In this document: positions 2,511-10,517 of the stretch, piece after piece
How positions within the stretch are numbered: the first letter of the stretch is position 1
Layout of the letters: the number at the start of each line of letters is the position of its first letter
Assembly (NCBI RefSeq): GCF_014697545.1
Contig: NZ_JACJSA010000023.1
Location: 1 to 64,000, forward strand
From: Oscillatoria sp. FACHB-1407
GTDB taxonomy: Bacteria; Cyanobacteriota; Cyanobacteriia; Elainellales; Elainellaceae
DNA: 64,000 nt
Direction: 5' to 3'
Notes under the pieces: generated by a model
Told to the model about the DNA's origin: nothing
Seen by the model: the letters and a program-made list of their open reading frames with translations, nothing else
The model's database searches: none
Translations under genes and position numbers: made by a program

Positions 2511-2825
2511 CTAATTCATGGTTGCCAAAACCTCTTGCAATTTGCCGCGAAACTCCCCTTTGGGATGGGCACCTTTGACCTCACCGACAATTTTGAAATC
2601 GCCTTCAGGGGCATCACAAACCAGGTAGGTGGGCCAACCCATTTCAGCCTTGTCGGGGTATTGCGCTAACAAAATCTTGCGATATTTGCGATAAGTGGCG
2701 GTGTCTTGCATTTTGACATCGACAAATTTTAGCCCCAGTTCTTCGGCTACTTTTTGATCATAAAACGACATTTTGTGGCAAAGTCCACAGTCTTCTGAAG
2801 AAAATTTAACAACAGTGAGTTCCAT
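2511..2825 (-). CDS. Thioredoxin-fold family protein
   Basis: The 104-residue protein from the ATG at 2825 begins MELTVVKFSSEDCGLCHKM. The first beta strand runs straight into a CGLC redox motif, as in thioredoxin-family proteins. This start is preferred over an upstream in-frame alternative at 2915 because it matches the thioredoxin N-terminus and is preceded by GGAG about 12 bases upstream. A downstream WPTYLV segment matches the cis-proline region of the fold. The protein lacks a signal peptide and is expected in the cytoplasm. Its partner is unknown. It lies downstream of pgk on the same strand, separated by a likely terminator. Confidence 0.85.
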   Translation of the reverse strand: MELTVVKFSSEDCGLCHKMSFYDQKVAEELGLKFVDVKMQDTATYRKYRKILLAQYPDKAEMGWPTYLVCDAPEGDFKIVGEVKGAHPKGEFRGKLQEVLATMN

Positions 2826-2944
2826 AGTTGAGTCACTCCAAACAGTGATATCTGCTGATGCATCCAATCGCTTCTTGAGGGCTAAAGAGCGATCGCAATA
2901 GCCCAAATCTATCAAAAATTTATTCTCATCTTAGAACCGCTGAT

Positions 2945-2971
2945 AAAAAGGGGCAGACCCATGCCTGCCCC
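2945..2971 (-). terminator. Intrinsic terminator of pgk
   Basis: On the minus strand GGGGCAG (2971-2965) pairs with CTGCCCC (2956-2950) across an eight-base loop and is followed by TTTTTATCA. It lies about 40 bp after the pgk stop codon, as expected for a rho-independent terminator. Confidence 0.75.
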
Positions 2972-3008
2972 ATCCTCATGCCAAAGTCAAAGAAACTCTA
3001 AACCAGGC

Positions 3009-4211
3009 TTAAGCATCATCCAGGGCAGCAATACCTGGAAGCACCTTGCCTTCCAGCAATTCGAGGCTAGCACCGCCCCCGGTGGAAATGTGGCTCATTT
3101 GGTCAGCAACCCCAACTTTCTCAACGGCTGCGACCGAGTCACCACCACCGATGATAGTGGTTGCTCCAGTTTTGGTGATATCAGCCAATGCATAGGCGAT
3201 CGCTTCGGTGCCTTTGGCAAACTTGTCAAACTCAAACACACCCATGGGACCATTCCAGATGACGGTCTTGCAGTCTGCTAGAGCGTCTTTGAAGACCTTG
3301 ATCGAGTCAGGACCAATGTCTAGACCCATCCAACCATCGGGAATCGCGTCAATGCCGACGGTTTGAGCATTGGCATCGGCGGCGAAGTTGTCTGCTACGA
3401 CCACATCGGTGGGCAACAACAAAGCCACACCCCGCTCTTTGGCCTTCGCTTCTAGAGCTTGTGCCAGTTCCAATTTATCCTCTTCGACCAGGGATTTACC
3501 GACCGACAAGCCACGCGCTTTGTAGAAAGTGAAGATCATGCCACCCCCGATCAGCAGCTTGTCTACTTTCTCCAGGAGGGTTTCAATCACACCGATTTTG
3601 CTGGATACCTTAGAACCACCGACGATCGCCGCTAGAGGACGTTGGGGTGATTCGATTGCACTTTGCAGGTATTGCAGTTCTTTTTCGATCAGGAATCCAG
3701 CGACGGAAGGCTTCAAATAGTGGGTCACACCTTCTGTGGACGCATGGGCGCGGTGAGCTGTCCCGAACGCATCGTTAACGTACAAATCTGCAACGGATGC
3801 CAATTGCTTAGCGAATTCAGGGTCGTTTTTCTCTTCTTCAGGATGGAAGCGTACATTCTCTAATAGAATGACTTGACCTGGCTTCATGGCAGCAACGGTG
3901 GTGGCGACTTCTTCTCCAATGCAGTCATCACACTTAATCACCTCTTGCCCCAACACTTCGGAGAGACGCTTGGCGACAGGGGTCAGACGGTATTTCTCAG
4001 TCACACCTTTAGGACGACCGAAGTGACTCGTCAGGATGACCTTAGCTCCTTTAGACGTTAGCTCGTTAATCGTAGGTAGAGCCGCCCGAATCCGGGTGTC
4101 ATCCGTGATGTTGTTTTGGTCATCGACGGGAACGTTGAAGTCTGCTCTCACTAAGACGCGCTTATCCTGCAAATCAGATGCTGCTAAATTTGCTAGAGTT
4201 TTTTTTGACAC
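3009..4211 (-). CDS. pgk: Phosphoglycerate kinase
   Basis: The 400-residue protein has the usual length and signatures of phosphoglycerate kinase: the N-terminal [11 protein letters not shown] motif that contributes to 3-phosphoglycerate binding, [10 protein letters not shown], and a nucleotide-binding C-terminal domain with GPMGVFEF and IIGGGDS. It interconverts 1,3-bisphosphoglycerate and 3-phosphoglycerate, in the Calvin cycle and glycolysis of a cyanobacterium. The start is a GTG at 4211 preceded by AGGGGG eight bases upstream, a clear ribosome binding site. The gene diverges from the universal stress protein gene over a 257-bp shared promoter region. Confidence 0.98.
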
Positions 4212-4468
4212 CGCTTGAACCCCCTAAATAAGTCTTTATACCTATCAATCATTGTAATCTGTCTGGGATCATTCCCTGCGATCTGAAATCGATTAGCTTT
4301 TCTTAAGCCACTTCTATTCTCAGATGCCAGCGTTTTGCTCCATGACTCTACCGCTAAAGGTATCCCGTAACCAACCAGCATTTTTACTCACTAACACTAT
4401 CGAAACCCTTCTCCAAAGACCTCTTTATCCATCTTTCAACTGTTGAATTCAAATCAATAAGGCGCATC

Positions 4469-4885
4469 ATGTTTAAGATAGTTCTGTTTCCCATTGACCA
4501 AAGTCGTGAATCTCGTGAGGCAGCAGATACTGTTGCCAATATTGTGAAAACTTATAAGAGTCGTCTGGTCATTCTGTCTGTGGTCGAAAGCCCTGATGAA
4601 GAAGCCAATCCTACGGCAGCCGATTTGACCATGACCTCGCCAGCCGCGATCGCTGAGCTGTTGCAAACAGCAAAGACCCTCTTTAGTGAGCAGGGCATCG
4701 AAGCGGAACTGATCGAGCGTCAGGGCAAACCTGCTTTTACGATCTGCGATGTCGCTGACGAAATCGGAGCCAATCTGATCGTTATGGGATGTCGCGGTTT
4801 GGGGCTAACCGATGAGGGAGCTTCTGACAGCGTTACCAATCGCGTGATCAATCTCTCGCCCTGTCCGGTGTTAATTGTTCCTTAA
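4469..4885 (+). CDS. Universal stress protein, UspA family
   Basis: The 138-residue single-domain protein starts MFKIVLFPIDQS, the typical first strand of the Usp fold with its Asp. It ends with IVMGCRGLGLT and CPVLIVP, the conserved C-terminal ATP-site region. The glycine pattern after GCRG is less canonical than G-x9-G-S/T, so ATP binding is not certain. The protein is cytoplasmic. The RbgA-type GTPase gene begins only 3 bp after its stop codon, so the two are probably co-transcribed. Confidence 0.92.
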   Translation: MFKIVLFPIDQSRESREAADTVANIVKTYKSRLVILSVVESPDEEANPTAADLTMTSPAAIAELLQTAKTLFSEQGIEAELIERQGKPAFTICDVADEIGANLIVMGCRGLGLTDEGASDSVTNRVINLSPCPVLIVP

Positions 4886-4888
4886 ATC

Positions 4889-5752
4889 ATGAGTTCTCCT
4901 CCGATCCAGTGGTATCCAGGGCATATTGCCAAAGCTGAACGTCAGTTGCTTGACCAGCTTAAAAAAGTCGATGTGGTGTTGGAGGTTCGGGATGCTCGAA
5001 TTCCCCTGTCAACCCATCACCCGCAAATGAAGCAGTGGGTTAACAACAAAGGTCGAGTGCTGGTGTTAAACCGGATGGATATGATTCCCCCCCGGTTGCG
5101 GCAGCAGTGGACAGAGTGGTTTGATGCCAACGGCGAAACTCCCTACTTTACCGACGCTCAACACGGTAAGGGGGTTGATGCTGTGTCTCAAGCGGCGCAA
5201 GCGGCGGGAGCCCAAATGAATCAACGCAGGCGCGATCGCGGTATGTTGCCTCGTCCTGTGCGTGCGGTCGTCATCGGCTTTCCCAATGTTGGCAAATCGG
5301 CTCTGATCAACCGTCTGCTGAAGCGGCGAGTGGTCGAGAGTGCGCGTCGTCCCGGTGTCACACGGCAGTTACGCTGGGTTCGTATCTCTGATGAGTTGGA
5401 ACTGTTGGATGCCCCCGGTATTTTGCCTTCCCAGTTAAAAGACCAGATGGCAGCGATCAAGCTGGCGATATGTGACGACATTGGCGAAGCGGCGTATGAC
5501 AACCAGCGCATTGCCGCTGCTCTGGTCGATCTGCTCAAACAACTTCAGGCGATCGCCCCCAATGTGGTGTCAGAGGATGTTTTGCGATCGCGCTATGATT
5601 TTGCCTCTGAATCTCTGACCGGGGAGAGCTACATTGAGGCACTCTCTGAGCATCGATATCAGAGCGATCGCGAGAAAACCGCTCGGCAAATTTTGAACGA
5701 CTTTCGCAAAGGTAACTTAGGAGCCGTTCCGCTAGAATTGCCACCGCAGTGA
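4889..5752 (+). CDS. rbgA: Ribosome biogenesis GTPase, YlqF/RbgA type
   Basis: The 287-residue protein has the circularly permuted GTPase order: G4 motif NRMD at 61-64 comes before the G1 P-loop GFPNVGKS at 130-137 and G3 DAPG at 174-177. The N-terminal IQWYPGHIAKAERQL segment is diagnostic of the YlqF/RbgA family, which acts in late assembly of the 50S ribosomal subunit. The C-terminal 100 residues form the helical domain typical of the family. It follows the Usp gene by 3 bp. Confidence 0.95.
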   Translation: MSSPPIQWYPGHIAKAERQLLDQLKKVDVVLEVRDARIPLSTHHPQMKQWVNNKGRVLVLNRMDMIPPRLRQQWTEWFDANGETPYFTDAQHGKGVDAVSQAAQAAGAQMNQRRRDRGMLPRPVRAVVIGFPNVGKSALINRLLKRRVVESARRPGVTRQLRWVRISDELELLDAPGILPSQLKDQMAAIKLAICDDIGEAAYDNQRIAAALVDLLKQLQAIAPNVVSEDVLRSRYDFASESLTGESYIEALSEHRYQSDREKTARQILNDFRKGNLGAVPLELPPQ

Positions 5753-6882: not shown

Positions 6883-7956
6883 ATGGATTCTTCAGTAGCC
6901 ATCTTTTCACGCTTCCGACGTCCCACTCAAAACACTCCGCTGAGTCAATTGTGTGGGTCTAAAAGGCTCTTCCGTAATCGTTACAAGGTTTTGCAAACTC
7001 TTGGTCGGGGTGGTTTTGGAGTCACCTATCTTGCCAAAGATGTCAGTTTGCCTGGTTCCCCTGAATGCGTCATTAAGCAGCTCTGCCCTAAGGTTAACAA
7101 TCCTGCCATTCTTCAAAGAGCTTCTGAGCGGTTTGAGCGGGAAGCCAAGACGTTAGCCCAACTGGGTAGTCACGCTCAGGTTCCCCAATTACTTGATTAC
7201 TTTCAAGAACAGGGTGAGTTTTACCTGGTGCAGGAGTATATTCGGGGCGTTAACCTGGCAAAGGAAGTTCGCAATGTTGGTCCGCTCTCAGAACTGGCGG
7301 TCAAGCGGTTCTTGCGGGAAATTCTTCCTGTGCTTGACTACATCCACCGCAATCAGGTAATTCACCGCGACATCAAGCCTCTCAACATCATCCGCTGTGA
7401 GGACGATGGTCGTCTGGTGTTGATTGACTTTGGAGCCGTCAAAGAGCAGATTGTTGAGGTTGATGACATGACCCAACGGGGGCAGTCAACCCAGTTTGTA
7501 GGCACAGTTGGGTTTGCTCCACCTGAGCAAATCTCACTGCGTCCTGTCTTCGCCAGCGACATCTATGCGATCGGCATGACCTGCTTGTATTTGCTGACGG
7601 GGCGTCCTCCAATGGAGTTTGACTGCGACCCCCTGACGGGCGAAATTATGTGGGAGTCGATGCTGCATTTGAGTGATCACTTTGGCAAGGTGCTTAGCAA
7701 GATGCTGAAGTGCTCTGTCGTCGATCGCTATCAGTCGGCAGAGCAGGTGTTGCGAGCATTGGAGTTAGAGCCGTATCTAGACAAGCTGGCAGACTGCATG
7801 AACACCAAAACACGGTCGCATGAGTCTGAGGCTGAAGCCGTTGAGGCTCCCCGGTATCTCTCACCGATCGCCCGTAGAGCGCAGGAGATTCGGGACTGGC
7901 GATCGCGCCTGCTTGCAAAGCAACGTACCCGTAAGAACCTCGTCTCCCCGGTTTAA
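6883..7956 (+). CDS. Serine/threonine protein kinase, eukaryote-like (PknB-type catalytic domain)
   Basis: The 357-residue protein carries a complete kinase domain from about residue 34 to 300. Visible motifs are the glycine-rich loop LGRGGFGVTYLAKD, Lys65 in VIKQL, the catalytic loop HRDIKPLN (His161, Asp163, Asn168), DFG at 182-184 and the APPEQ activation-segment end. All catalytic residues are present, so it should phosphorylate proteins on Ser or Thr. No transmembrane or sensory domain follows, so it is probably cytoplasmic. Its nearest relative in the window is the TPR pseudokinase at 8550-10517, on the opposite strand, with a PatX-like gene between them. Confidence 0.95.
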   Translation: MDSSVAIFSRFRRPTQNTPLSQLCGSKRLFRNRYKVLQTLGRGGFGVTYLAKDVSLPGSPECVIKQLCPKVNNPAILQRASERFEREAKTLAQLGSHAQVPQLLDYFQEQGEFYLVQEYIRGVNLAKEVRNVGPLSELAVKRFLREILPVLDYIHRNQVIHRDIKPLNIIRCEDDGRLVLIDFGAVKEQIVEVDDMTQRGQSTQFVGTVGFAPPEQISLRPVFASDIYAIGMTCLYLLTGRPPMEFDCDPLTGEIMWESMLHLSDHFGKVLSKMLKCSVVDRYQSAEQVLRALELEPYLDKLADCMNTKTRSHESEAEAVEAPRYLSPIARRAQEIRDWRSRLLAKQRTRKNLVSPV

Positions 7957-8200
7957 GCCTGGTTGCAGCCCTCAATTTAACGTCAGTTCGGTTTAATCTG
8001 GCGAATGAATTCGCGGCTAGAGCTGCAATTTAACGTCGGTTTAGGAACCCGGCGAATAAATTCGCAGCTATTTGAGCCAAGTCCGCCGACGCGGACTACC
8101 GAAATCCAGGTTTGACGAACCGACGCAGGTCGGTTTTGCTCTGATAGCGGCAGTTTTAACCGCCGAAATCCTTATCCCGAATTCACGTTAATTTACTGTA
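7957..8200. repeat. Dispersed cyanobacterial hairpin element, copy 1
   Basis: The segment contains GGCGAATGAATTCGCGGCTA, a second related GGCGAATAAATTCGCAGCTA, the hairpin AGTCCGCCGACGCGGACT, then GAACCGACGCAGGTCGGTTTTG, CGGCAGTTTTAACCGCCG and a closing CCCGAATTCACGTTA. This ordered set of small palindromes is a widespread intergenic element of cyanobacteria. Related copies occur here at 17130-17240 and 28660-28812. There is no coding potential. Confidence 0.75.
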
Positions 8201-8201
8201 G

Positions 8202-8233
8202 AAGCCGGAGTTTCAATAAAACTCCGGCTTTTT
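8202..8233 (+). terminator. Intrinsic terminator hairpin
   Basis: AAGCCGGAGTTT (8202-8213) pairs perfectly with AAACTCCGGCTT (8219-8230) across a five-base loop and runs into a T tract on the plus strand. It lies downstream of the Ser/Thr kinase and upstream of the PatX-like gene, so it should insulate the two transcripts. Confidence 0.75.
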
Positions 8234-8337
8234 GGCGATCGCTCTTGACATTTTCAGGGAAAACCCCATCAGGGCTATCCGGATAAGGGCTGGCAAGCCT
8301 GTATAGGGAATTAAATGCCTCTATATAGGTTGTTCCC

Positions 8338-8553
8338 ATGCGCGTTTTTACGTTCACTGTTCTCTCAACTCTGTTCGTGACTGGTTTGGCAATTGCCACT
8401 TCAGACATGGCAACTTCCTCCGTGGAGTTCAATGCTGAGACAACTCAATTCCAACTGGTTGGTGACACCAACCGTAGAGACACTTCCTATCGGGGAAGCG
8501 GTCGTCGTGAGATTGTTGCATTTCCAGCAACAACCCTGCTCAACCACGCTTAA
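8338..8553 (+). CDS. patX: PatX-like RGSGR-containing small secreted peptide precursor
   Basis: The 71-residue product starts MRVFTFTVLSTLFVTGLAI, a short positive N-terminus followed by a hydrophobic segment as in a signal peptide. It then has a polar spacer and the exact pentapeptide RGSGR at residues 52-56 (bases 8491-8505), followed by REIV. RGSGR is the active pentapeptide of PatS. Its presence behind a signal-like N-terminus and before a short tail is the layout of PatX proteins, which occur in filamentous cyanobacteria that have HetR, including lineages without heterocysts. The gene follows a terminator by about 105 bp. Its last four bases overlap the end of the convergent TPR pseudokinase gene. 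A 79-codon antisense frame covering this locus looks spurious. Identification rests on motif and layout and not on alignment. Confidence 0.75.
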   Translation: MRVFTFTVLSTLFVTGLAIATSDMATSSVEFNAETTQFQLVGDTNRRDTSYRGSGRREIVAFPATTLLNHA

Positions 8554-10517
8554 TTTCCCTGGAGTTGCTTCAGTTGATATTGAGCATCTTCATAGCAGCC
8601 CATACGACCTGAGTTGAGACACAACGTTGCAGATTGCTGAAAATCTTCGATCGCGCCACGTTGATCTCCAGCTTCGACTCGGACTAAGGCCCGGTCGTAG
8701 TGGGCAAACACATGTTCTGGGTTGCGTTGAATCGCAGCCGTGTAGTCAGCGATCGCCCCTTGTTGATCTCCTAACTCATAGCGGGCAAGCCCACGATTGT
8801 AGTATGGGTCTGGATCTTGTGGATCAAGCCGAATCGCAATATTAAAATCTTCGATGGCACCTGTTAAATCGCCCAATCGCCGTCGAGTCAAACCGCGATT
8901 TTGGTAAGCCCGCACCGAGTTAGGTTGCAAGTTTATCGCTTGCGTACAATCGGCGATCGCTTCTTGATGATTTTTTAAGTTTGACCGTGATAGGCAACGA
9001 TTGAGATAGGCCGCCGGAAAGATTGGATCGAGTTGAATTGCCTGTGTGTAGTCTTCGATCGCGCCCTGTTCATCCCCAGACTCTGCTCGCACAGTTCCCC
9101 GGTTGACATAGGCTTTAGGGGAATTGGGAGCCAGACGAATCGTTTGAGTATAGTCGGCAATAGCACGCTGGCGATCGCCCAATTCAAACCAGAGATTGCC
9201 GCGTTCGTAATAGGCTTGCGCCATATCAGGGTCAAGCTGAATCGCTCGATCCAAATCCTCTAGCGCGGCTTGCAAATCCTGTTGCTCGGTCAGGGCAATG
9301 CCGCGATTAAAGTAGGCAGAACTGGTGGGATGCCATTGAAGCGATCGCGTATAACTGGCGATCGCTTCCTCTGGGCGATTTAACTGCTTTTGCTCGGAGG
9401 CTCGCTGCAAAAAATACTGCGCCAGTAAGGATTGCGGCAATTTCAGCAGCACTGCCGCCAACACTGCCACGACCACTGCCCCAAGGGCGATCGCCTGGAG
9501 CGACGGGCGACGGGGGCGGTGATGGGAGGCTTGGGCTGGTGGAGGGGGTAGTTGTAACGACTGGGGCGATTGAGGTTGAGGCGGTTCAGGCTCCTTCGCC
9601 AACATCCCATTGGGTGACCCCCCGTTTGACAATGGTGTAGGTAGTTTTGACAGGTTTTGCTTAGACAACACCTGACTCCGCAGATCGTCCAACGCTTCTG
9701 TTGCCTGCTGATATCGCTGTTTGCTGTCGGGATGTACCAGTTTGTCAAGCACCAGACTGAGCTCTCGTCCCGTCTGGGTATGACTATGCCACGAACGCCC
9801 CTGTTCATTCGCAGGATTAGCCGCAAGCACCTGTGACAACACCTCTGTTGTCAGCCCGGTCAAGCCTTGAATGATGATGACACCCACGGCATACAGGTCA
9901 CTGTTGAACTGCAATTGCCCCTGAATCTGGTCGGGTGGGGTATAGGGGGATGCCCCATCTATGCTGTTGGTGGTTGGAGTGCTGTTGCCTGATGTAGAAG
10001 TCAGCGATCGCGTTGCCTGAGCACTGATCTCTCTAAAAATGCCAAACCCTGCTAACACCAACAATCCATCTGAACTGCGGCGAATCCAGCTAGACGGTTT
10101 GATATTGCGATGCACCACACCCCAACCATGCACCACGACCAAAATCTCTAACATCTCTTGCAAGAGCTTGGTTGCCTGTAATTCAGTCCAGGTGTGACCG
10201 GGAGCAAGTTCTTGGGTGAGCGGCTGTCCGGGAATGAATTCCTCAACTAAATAAAAATTATTATTTTCCTCAAAGAAGGTCAAAATTTTTGGAATGCGAT
10301 CGTGCTTACTAAACTTTTGAAGCGACTCCGCCTTCTTCTTGAGGAGTGTTAGTACAAAGCGCAGTGTCCGGGGGTTTTGCTCAGGCAGTTTGAGGTGTCG
10401 AATGACGCACTTAGGATAACCAGAAAGCTGAGTATCACCGACGAGATAGGTTCGTCCTAATACGTCTGAGCCTAAGATTTTGATGAATTGGTAGCGACCA
10501 CCCAGTAGCTGGTTCAC
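8550..10517 (-). CDS. Kinase-fold protein (predicted pseudokinase) with transmembrane segment and TPR repeats
   Basis: The 655-residue protein has an N-terminal Ser/Thr-kinase fold (about 6-285), a proline-rich linker, one membrane helix at about 340-365 and eight or so tetratricopeptide repeats (about 370-645, with recurring YxxRG...LGD..GAI.DY.AI units). Catalytic residues are missing: the ATP lysine is Arg40 (VIRHL), HRD is HRN (Asn138), the catalytic-loop Asn is Ser143 and DFG reads GFG (157-159). The glycine loop is also poor (LGSDVLG). It is therefore predicted to be inactive as a kinase and to work as a scaffold, with the TPR array across the membrane from the kinase fold. It lies 109 bp downstream of omp85 on the same strand. 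Confidence 0.9.
   Translation of the reverse strand: MNQLLGGRYQFIKILGSDVLGRTYLVGDTQLSGYPKCVIRHLKLPEQNPRTLRFVLTLLKKKAESLQKFSKHDRIPKILTFFEENNNFYLVEEFIPGQPLTQELAPGHTWTELQATKLLQEMLEILVVVHGWGVVHRNIKPSSWIRRSSDGLLVLAGFGIFREISAQATRSLTSTSGNSTPTTNSIDGASPYTPPDQIQGQLQFNSDLYAVGVIIIQGLTGLTTEVLSQVLAANPANEQGRSWHSHTQTGRELSLVLDKLVHPDSKQRYQQATEALDDLRSQVLSKQNLSKLPTPLSNGGSPNGMLAKEPEPPQPQSPQSLQLPPPPAQASHHRPRRPSLQAIALGAVVVAVLAAVLLKLPQSLLAQYFLQRASEQKQLNRPEEAIASYTRSLQWHPTSSAYFNRGIALTEQQDLQAALEDLDRAIQLDPDMAQAYYERGNLWFELGDRQRAIADYTQTIRLAPNSPKAYVNRGTVRAESGDEQGAIEDYTQAIQLDPIFPAAYLNRCLSRSNLKNHQEAIADCTQAINLQPNSVRAYQNRGLTRRRLGDLTGAIEDFNIAIRLDPQDPDPYYNRGLARYELGDQQGAIADYTAAIQRNPEHVFAHYDRALVRVEAGDQRGAIEDFQQSATLCLNSGRMGCYEDAQYQLKQLQGN

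Follow-up and report, generated by a model that had tools for sequence, protein, structure and literature searches.

A second, hetR-unlinked patX-type gene in Oscillatoria sp. FACHB-1407

RESULTS

A patX-type gene between two kinase genes

The window analyzed here is the whole stretch of 64,000 nucleotides at the start of contig NZ_JACJSA010000023.1 of Oscillatoria sp. FACHB-1407 (order Elainellales). On its forward strand, at positions 8338 to 8553 (ATG at 8338, TAA ending at 8553), lies a patX-type gene for a product of 71 amino acids, a hetR-unlinked copy with four homologues in the same family. The product begins MRVFTFTVLSTLFVTGLAI and ends TSYRGSGRREIVAFPATTLLNHA. An earlier note on this DNA had described a signal-like N-terminus, and residues 1 to 20 (8338 to 8397, + strand) are indeed hydrophobic in sequence and hydropathy screens, with a candidate AIA cleavage site picked out by eye at residues 18 to 20. 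The RGSGR pentapeptide read earlier at residues 52 to 56 (codons at 8491 to 8505, + strand), followed by REIV, is borne out by the open reading frame (ORF) and by alignment; Tyr precedes it, RE opens a tail of 15 residues past it, and its codons show synonymous changes only across the four homologues.

Pfam confirmed that both neighbors of the gene are kinase-fold genes, as the note had claimed. Upstream lies a Ser/Thr protein kinase gene (6883 to 7956, + strand; Pkinase, 5.8e-38), and downstream a kinase-TPR gene (8550 to 10517, − strand; Pkinase, 1.3e-18, plus TPR repeats) runs tail to tail with patX with a 4-base overlap, an arrangement also found with the same gene (56 to 58%) in SL_7_1 (G017). 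A hairpin with a stem of 11 bp or more and a short T run after it (8203 to 8232, + strand; −20.9 kcal/mol, z = −5.1) is a possible terminator of the upstream kinase gene, and a terminator scan did not call it. A pgk/usp/GTPase gene cluster (3009 to 5752), 2.6 to 5.3 kb upstream of patX, also lies about 3 to 5 kb from patX in genus g22 of family f2 (identities of about 84, 67, and 63%). In G020 to G022 and the distant G204, the unlinked patX is divergent beside an EI24-family gene (51.8 to 53% among them). Ten loci of families f2 and f6 (L145, L147 to L151, L157, L164, L167, and L168) have a gene of about 590 amino acids directly upstream of patX, with a dinucleotide-binding-like start by eye; no match to it was found anywhere in the window.

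A TCCGGA, the DIF1-type −35 element, stands 60 nt before the ATG (8278 to 8283, + strand) and is found at −60 to −62 in all five window-type copies, that is, the window gene and its four homologues. A −10-like TATAGG (8302 to 8307, + strand) follows 18 nt after it, and GTATA(A/G)GG 17 nt after TCCGGA is conserved in 5/5 copies; a generic sigma-70 scan called no promoter at this TCCGGA/TATAGG site. DIF1 drives patX in Anabaena, according to excerpts of PMC7377430. The −10 region is overlaid by an imperfect dyad (CCTGTATAG / CTATATAGG; 8298 to 8329; shuffle p = 0.04, z = −3.4), which we regard as suggestive. A dyad at the same place, likewise imperfect, recurs across 44 patX promoters outside family f6 (the window's and 43 others) with the consensus CCGTATCA...TGAnACGG, and its cells pair in 66.7% against 27 to 55% when slid, for a structure drawn from the same sequences. 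None of 500 shuffles reached its covariation score, 49/500 and 31/500 reached two other measures, and RNAalifold returned no consensus structure for it. At shuffle p <= 0.05 the dyad was found in 13/34 rows of the window's family and 0/36 of f6.

Conservation and coding evidence

Searching the 36 genomes of the order with the protein (tblastn), we found clear homologues in G017, G020, G021, and G022 (42 to 47% identity, E 8e-11 to 6e-9); the remaining seven matches had E of 0.156 or worse. The homologue-bearing relatives are SL_7_1 (G017), SM1_4_3, RM1_406_9, and FACHB-471 (G022), the first three named Leptolyngbyaceae. A wider profile search with the alignment as query returned the same five genomes, the window's included, at E <= 7e-20, and the next four best profile matches outside the window-type copies (G027, G021, G032, and G033) adjoin hetR loci. 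A scan of the genome contigs with the single window sequence gave no match, and a scan with the alignment led to the four relatives. Loss of the frame in close relatives, a concern of the earlier note, is thus not what we see: four relatives keep it, and searches of the order's remaining 31 genomes did not detect it. A further small ORF with SHRGSGRRDL was seen on contig 147 of G027 (L222), not on the hetR contig and without TCC(G/T)GA upstream.

YRGSGRR is kept in all five window-type copies, which span three genera. The conservation claimed for the residues after RGSGR holds in part, for R57 (5/5) and for E58 in 4/5 copies (Ala in G017), and the mid-protein region is poorly conserved in the five-copy alignment. 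In support of coding, 15/30 residues common to the window product and its FACHB-471 homologue are encoded by different codons, which fits selection on the protein. The overlapping longer antisense frame of the earlier note is present (8193 to 8432, − strand, 79 amino acids), and against the four relatives' loci it gave one weak match only (43 amino acids, 33%, E = 0.014).

RGSGR-like DNA is not enriched across the 8.1-Mb genome (35 sites versus 84 for a reversed control, and 317 versus 447 with a wider pattern), and this survey was dropped as stand-alone evidence for being too noisy. By chance, ORFs of small size that combine RG(S/T)GR with a hydrophobic N-terminus are expected at 0.007 per 64 kb, or about 0.85 per genome; the window has one. 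The same ORF type with TCCGGA at the right distance occurred in 0/300 resampled windows, and the combination of RGSGR, hydrophobic start, and TCCGGA in the window is more than chance.

Two hetR genes and a second, hetR-linked patX

The host carries hetR, as predicted, in the form of two HetR_C genes. HetR1 (contig C7) matches solved HetR chains over residues 20 to 318 of 319 and keeps all six of the residues that excerpts of PMC4649674 name as binding PatS6 (R223, E253, E254, D256, D270, and D278). HetR2 (C5:199415), 53% identical to HetR1, keeps four of them (R223, E253, D270, and D278) and carries Val in place of E254 and Glu in place of D256. Two or three HetR_C matches are present in 9/36 genomes of the order, the extras of G015 being fragments, and a HetR2-like gene (L185; 53% to HetR2, 48% to HetR1) was also seen in G204. 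No convincing patX ORF was found in 19 kb around HetR2 (L052).

Directly upstream of hetR1, on the same strand, lies a second RGSGR ORF (...PLFHRGSGRRTSCTS), probably co-transcribed with hetR, with its ATG 574 nt before the HetR match. This hetR is more than 160 kb inside another contig and hence unlinked to the window patX. The window gene thus represents an unlinked copy in addition to the usual linked one. A hetR-linked patX ORF was found in 34/36 genomes of the order, 29 in a first tabulation and five later, including all five with a window-type copy; of the 29, eight encode only 26 to 40 amino acids. In G004 the 6 kb examined contained none, and the stretch covered in G028 has hetR close to its edge. 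Pairing of the window-type copy with HetR2 was rejected as a rule, 4/5 genomes with such a copy having one HetR_C gene, as was tracking of nitrogen fixation: nifH is over the cut-off in the window's genome (G000) and in G021, 2/5 only.

Upstream of hetR in G204 (L184, contig 4, about 2744 to 3091, − strand), a PatX-like precursor of about 115 amino acids with TCCTGA at −60 carries four RG(S/T)GR repeats (HRGSGR, YRGTGR, HRGSGR, and YRGSGR), reminiscent of a polyprotein hormone precursor. In G025 (L061, near 6451, − strand), the 13-residue ORF MKPQSTDGRGSGR precedes a second hetR copy by about 200 nt, ends in RGSGR, and is PatS-like in size and position. The hetR-linked PatX of G096 (L155, 6362, + strand) has two related segments, HRGSDRREF and HRGSGRREF, the first lacking the exact motif, and L134, L136, and L138 (genus g32, family f10) each have a tandem patX pair upstream of hetR, each copy with its own TCCTGA.

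Relation to the known PatX family

The PatX profile NF047413 (curated cut-off, 30 bits) aligned with residues 1 to 58 of the window product at 21.5 bits (E = 2.9e-4), so that similarity extends beyond RGSGR, at a score under the cut-off. Since 21.5 bits falls below 30, we file the gene not as an NF047413 heterocyst_PatX equivalog but as PatX in the wider sense; the hetR-linked patX of the same genome, at 20.1 bits, is likewise under 30. At E up to 1 the profile matched 10/20 hetR-linked relatives and 5/5 window-type copies, one of these only at E = 0.99. Genome-wide, at E up to 0.001, it matched 0/36 genomes of the order, the window's own included, and across the phylum it matched 68/386 genomes, 57 of them above the cut-off and several with two or more such matches.

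Elhai and Khudyakov reportedly characterized PatX in 2018 as a small RG(S/T)GR protein with a hydrophobic N-terminus, encoded in a genome with hetR, with a DIF1 motif within about 69 nt upstream and, in heterocyst formers only, an NtcA-like site upstream. Export, PatP cleavage, and HetR inhibition are further PatX features. The window gene has RGSGR in 71 amino acids, the hydrophobic N-terminus, TCCGGA at −60, and hetR in its genome. No NtcA box (GTAN8TAC) was found in the 400 nt upstream, which we do not count against membership because such a box is reportedly unexpected outside heterocyst formers. It occurs in 26/36 patX rows of family f6, which we take as heterocyst formers since NF047413 matches f6 strongly, versus 2/64 other rows.

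Direct orthology with the PatX of heterocyst formers was considered and is not established. On a family-f6 profile the window copy reaches 22.1 bits, compared with 14.6 on the hetR-linked profile of its own family, and 4/5 window-type copies lean to f6 while one does not. However, among the twelve hetR-linked copies of the family that were listed, scores on the f6 profile go up to 27.6 bits, so this profile fails to separate linked from unlinked copies. Moreover, the f6 copy may itself be a displaced hetR-linked one, since patX lies about 12 kb from hetR in 2/8 f6 genomes compared (G372 and G053). Similarity past the five residues, a frame kept in relatives, and hetR in the genome support the earlier reading of a PatX-like RGSGR peptide gene. 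That note did not include the DIF1-type promoter, the hetR-linked patX, or the difference between the two copies. We conclude that 8338 to 8553 is a true patX-type gene, which adds a member to a known family and is the second in its genome.

Promoter motif and linkage to hetR

We compiled 100 patX rows, taken from this order and from further families and 36 of them from f6, covering fetched loci rather than every NF047413 match in the phylum, and scored TCCNGA between −72 and −50. Start codons were chosen partly by motif distance, which affects the distance and not the fourth base, and linkage was judged on the fetched DNA, the G372 and G053 copies lying about 12 kb and the G163 copy about 18 kb from hetR. 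After exclusion of two rows (one tandem copy some 3 kb from hetR, one at a contig end), patX within 2.6 kb upstream of hetR had 41 TCCTGA and 1 TCCGGA (G231), whereas unlinked patX had 47 TCCGGA, 3 TCCTGA, and 6 without the motif. An enlarged table (6 more linked rows, all TCCTGA, and 8 more unlinked) gave 47 TCCTGA to 1 for linked rows and 48 TCCGGA, 5 TCCTGA, 1 TCCCGA, and 10 without motif for unlinked ones. Counted by genus, the ratios were 25:1 versus 3:28 (Fisher p = 8e-12) and, without f6, 25:1 versus 3:7 (p = 1e-4), genera being nonindependent in both counts.

Within this order, the hetR-linked patX has TCCTGA in the 34 genomes where it was found, and the five genomes with both copies (G000, G017, G020, G021, and G022) all combine a linked TCCTGA with an unlinked TCCGGA. 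Nine genomes have a single linked and a single unlinked copy that each carry a motif. Six of them (these five and G204) show the contrast, and three outside the order do not: G229, whose start is doubtful, G133, where the copy has RGGGR, and G231, where it has RGNGR. The families given as breaking it are f10 and f27 within genomes and f10 and f2 across the phylum. The unlinked copy has no motif in G370, G237, G073, and G388. The eight added unlinked PatX-like proteins, from nine loci without a screened RG(S/T)GR ORF (G043 was left out) and without hetR in the stretch, have TCCTGA (2), TCCCGA (1), TCCGGA (1), or none (4). Their pentapeptide is RGGGR in L131 (G133), L139 (G289), and L158 (G410), RGEGR in L144 (G191), RGNGR in L154 (G231), and RGSGR in G073, G388, and G263; those with altered pentapeptides may be copies that are drifting or signals whose specificity has changed. 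We therefore reject the contrast as a phylum rule, given 6/9 within genomes; the association is strong across the phylum, and the contrast is a strong pattern in this order and the single f23 genome seen. No mention of TCCTGA together with hetR was found in the literature searched, but since a supplementary figure of PMC11298460 shows a predicted DIF1 promoter, we claim no first description.

DISCUSSION

We consider it probable that the window gene, the second patX of its genome, is expressed from a DIF1-type promoter of its own and encodes an exported PatX precursor acting as an inhibitor of HetR. Nostoc PatX is exported and cut by PatP, and its hexapeptide binds HetR (excerpts of PMC12756182). 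By analogy, the window gene would be expressed and its precursor, for which the hydrophobic N-terminus suggests export, would be cut to an RGSGR peptide, probably YRGSGR; the peptide would reach cells of the filament, inhibit HetR by binding its hood domain, and so influence cell fate along the filament. The host is presumably filamentous, judging from its relatives and its hetR. Tyr before RGSGR should be tolerated, since substitution of the first PatS6 residue leaves HetR affinity unaffected (PMC4649674, in part). Having its own TCCGGA promoter and being unlinked, the gene could be expressed at times or in cells different from those of the patX-hetR unit. Counted against the PatX reading are the score below the profile cut-off, the missing NtcA box, the occurrence in 5/36 genomes, and the contrast failing in 3/9. 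In Leptolyngbya BL0902, moreover, excerpts of PMC11298460 describe effects of patX deletion as basically independent of hetR, which stands against a simple HetR-inhibition reading.

The window copy could instead be a duplicate that is redundant or drifting and serves no role of its own, with the hetR-linked copy doing the work. This would suit its presence in 5/36 genomes of the order against 34/36 for the linked copy, as well as the poor conservation of its mid-protein, and the RGGGR, RGEGR, and RGNGR of second copies in other families indicate that such copies can drift. We nevertheless hold it to be unlikely, because all five copies, which come from three genera, retain RGSGRR and a TCCGGA at −60 to −62, with synonymous codon change. 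That the peptide serves mainly another target, either the divergent HetR2 or a non-HetR receptor, seems to us quite unlikely: HetR2 keeps four contact residues at 53% identity to HetR1, and the BL0902 effects looked HetR-independent (PMC11298460, in part), but HetR1 keeps all six, and HetR2 is evidently not needed for a window-type copy, since four of the five genomes that have one carry a single HetR_C gene. That RGSGR arose by chance in a spurious small ORF, with the antisense frame or none being real, is extremely improbable. Sequence resembling RGSGR turns up often by chance in the genome, nearly one hydrophobic-start ORF of this kind is expected in it, and the antisense frame is longer, but four relatives conserve both the protein, with codons changed synonymously, and the promoter, which already contradicts this explanation.

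A broader and doubtful proposal is that some filamentous cyanobacteria have two separately controlled PatX signals, a linked TCCTGA copy that would be self-limiting with HetR and an unlinked TCCGGA copy that would act as an independent long-range inhibitor, the one-base change in the −35 element marking the switch in control. The window genome would then be a living intermediate, standing between the operon and the unlinked activator-inhibitor layout that heterocyst formers have. The role of HetR and PatX in filaments without heterocysts has been called a mystery (excerpts of PMC11298460), and a genome whose two patX genes have different promoter types offers a clean genetic test of the PatX role; an unlinked second copy could also mask or confuse deletions of the hetR-linked one. 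Excerpts of PMC12756182 report a hetR-without-patX pattern in 12.0% of genomes, with a Leptolyngbya as the example. Our counts for this order, 0/36 with the curated model and 34/36 for a hetR-linked ORF, suggest that surveys by that model miss PatX here.

Among known RGSGR sources, PatS is not known to have such a signal-like N-terminus and HetN is a long enzyme-like protein. Like PatS, the window gene would supply an RGSGR peptide under a DIF1 promoter (PMC7377430, in part), but PatS has 17 amino acids and ends at RGSGR (PMC12756182, in part), whereas the window product has 71 with a 15-residue tail. It is also like HetN as an RGSGR source, HetN having an internal RGSGR and inhibiting HetR (PMC7761841), and unlike it in being only 71 amino acids long. 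With the hetR-linked PatX of Leptolyngbya BL0902 and of this order, it shares a small RGSGR precursor, an origin in nonheterocystous filaments, and a DIF1-like promoter (excerpts of PMC11298460), but those genes lie directly upstream of hetR, with TCCTGA in this order, and the window copy has TCCGGA and lies on another contig than hetR. The PatX of heterocyst formers (Nostoc/Anabaena PCC 7120, NF047413) resembles it in small size, hydrophobic N-terminus, and RG(S/T)GR with a short tail, and also in having TCCGGA about 60 nt before the ATG at a place not directly beside hetR (36 f6 rows). Unlike that PatX, the window copy scores 21.5 bits against a cut-off of 30, has Tyr rather than His before RGSGR, and has no NtcA box, and its genome also keeps the hetR-linked copy.
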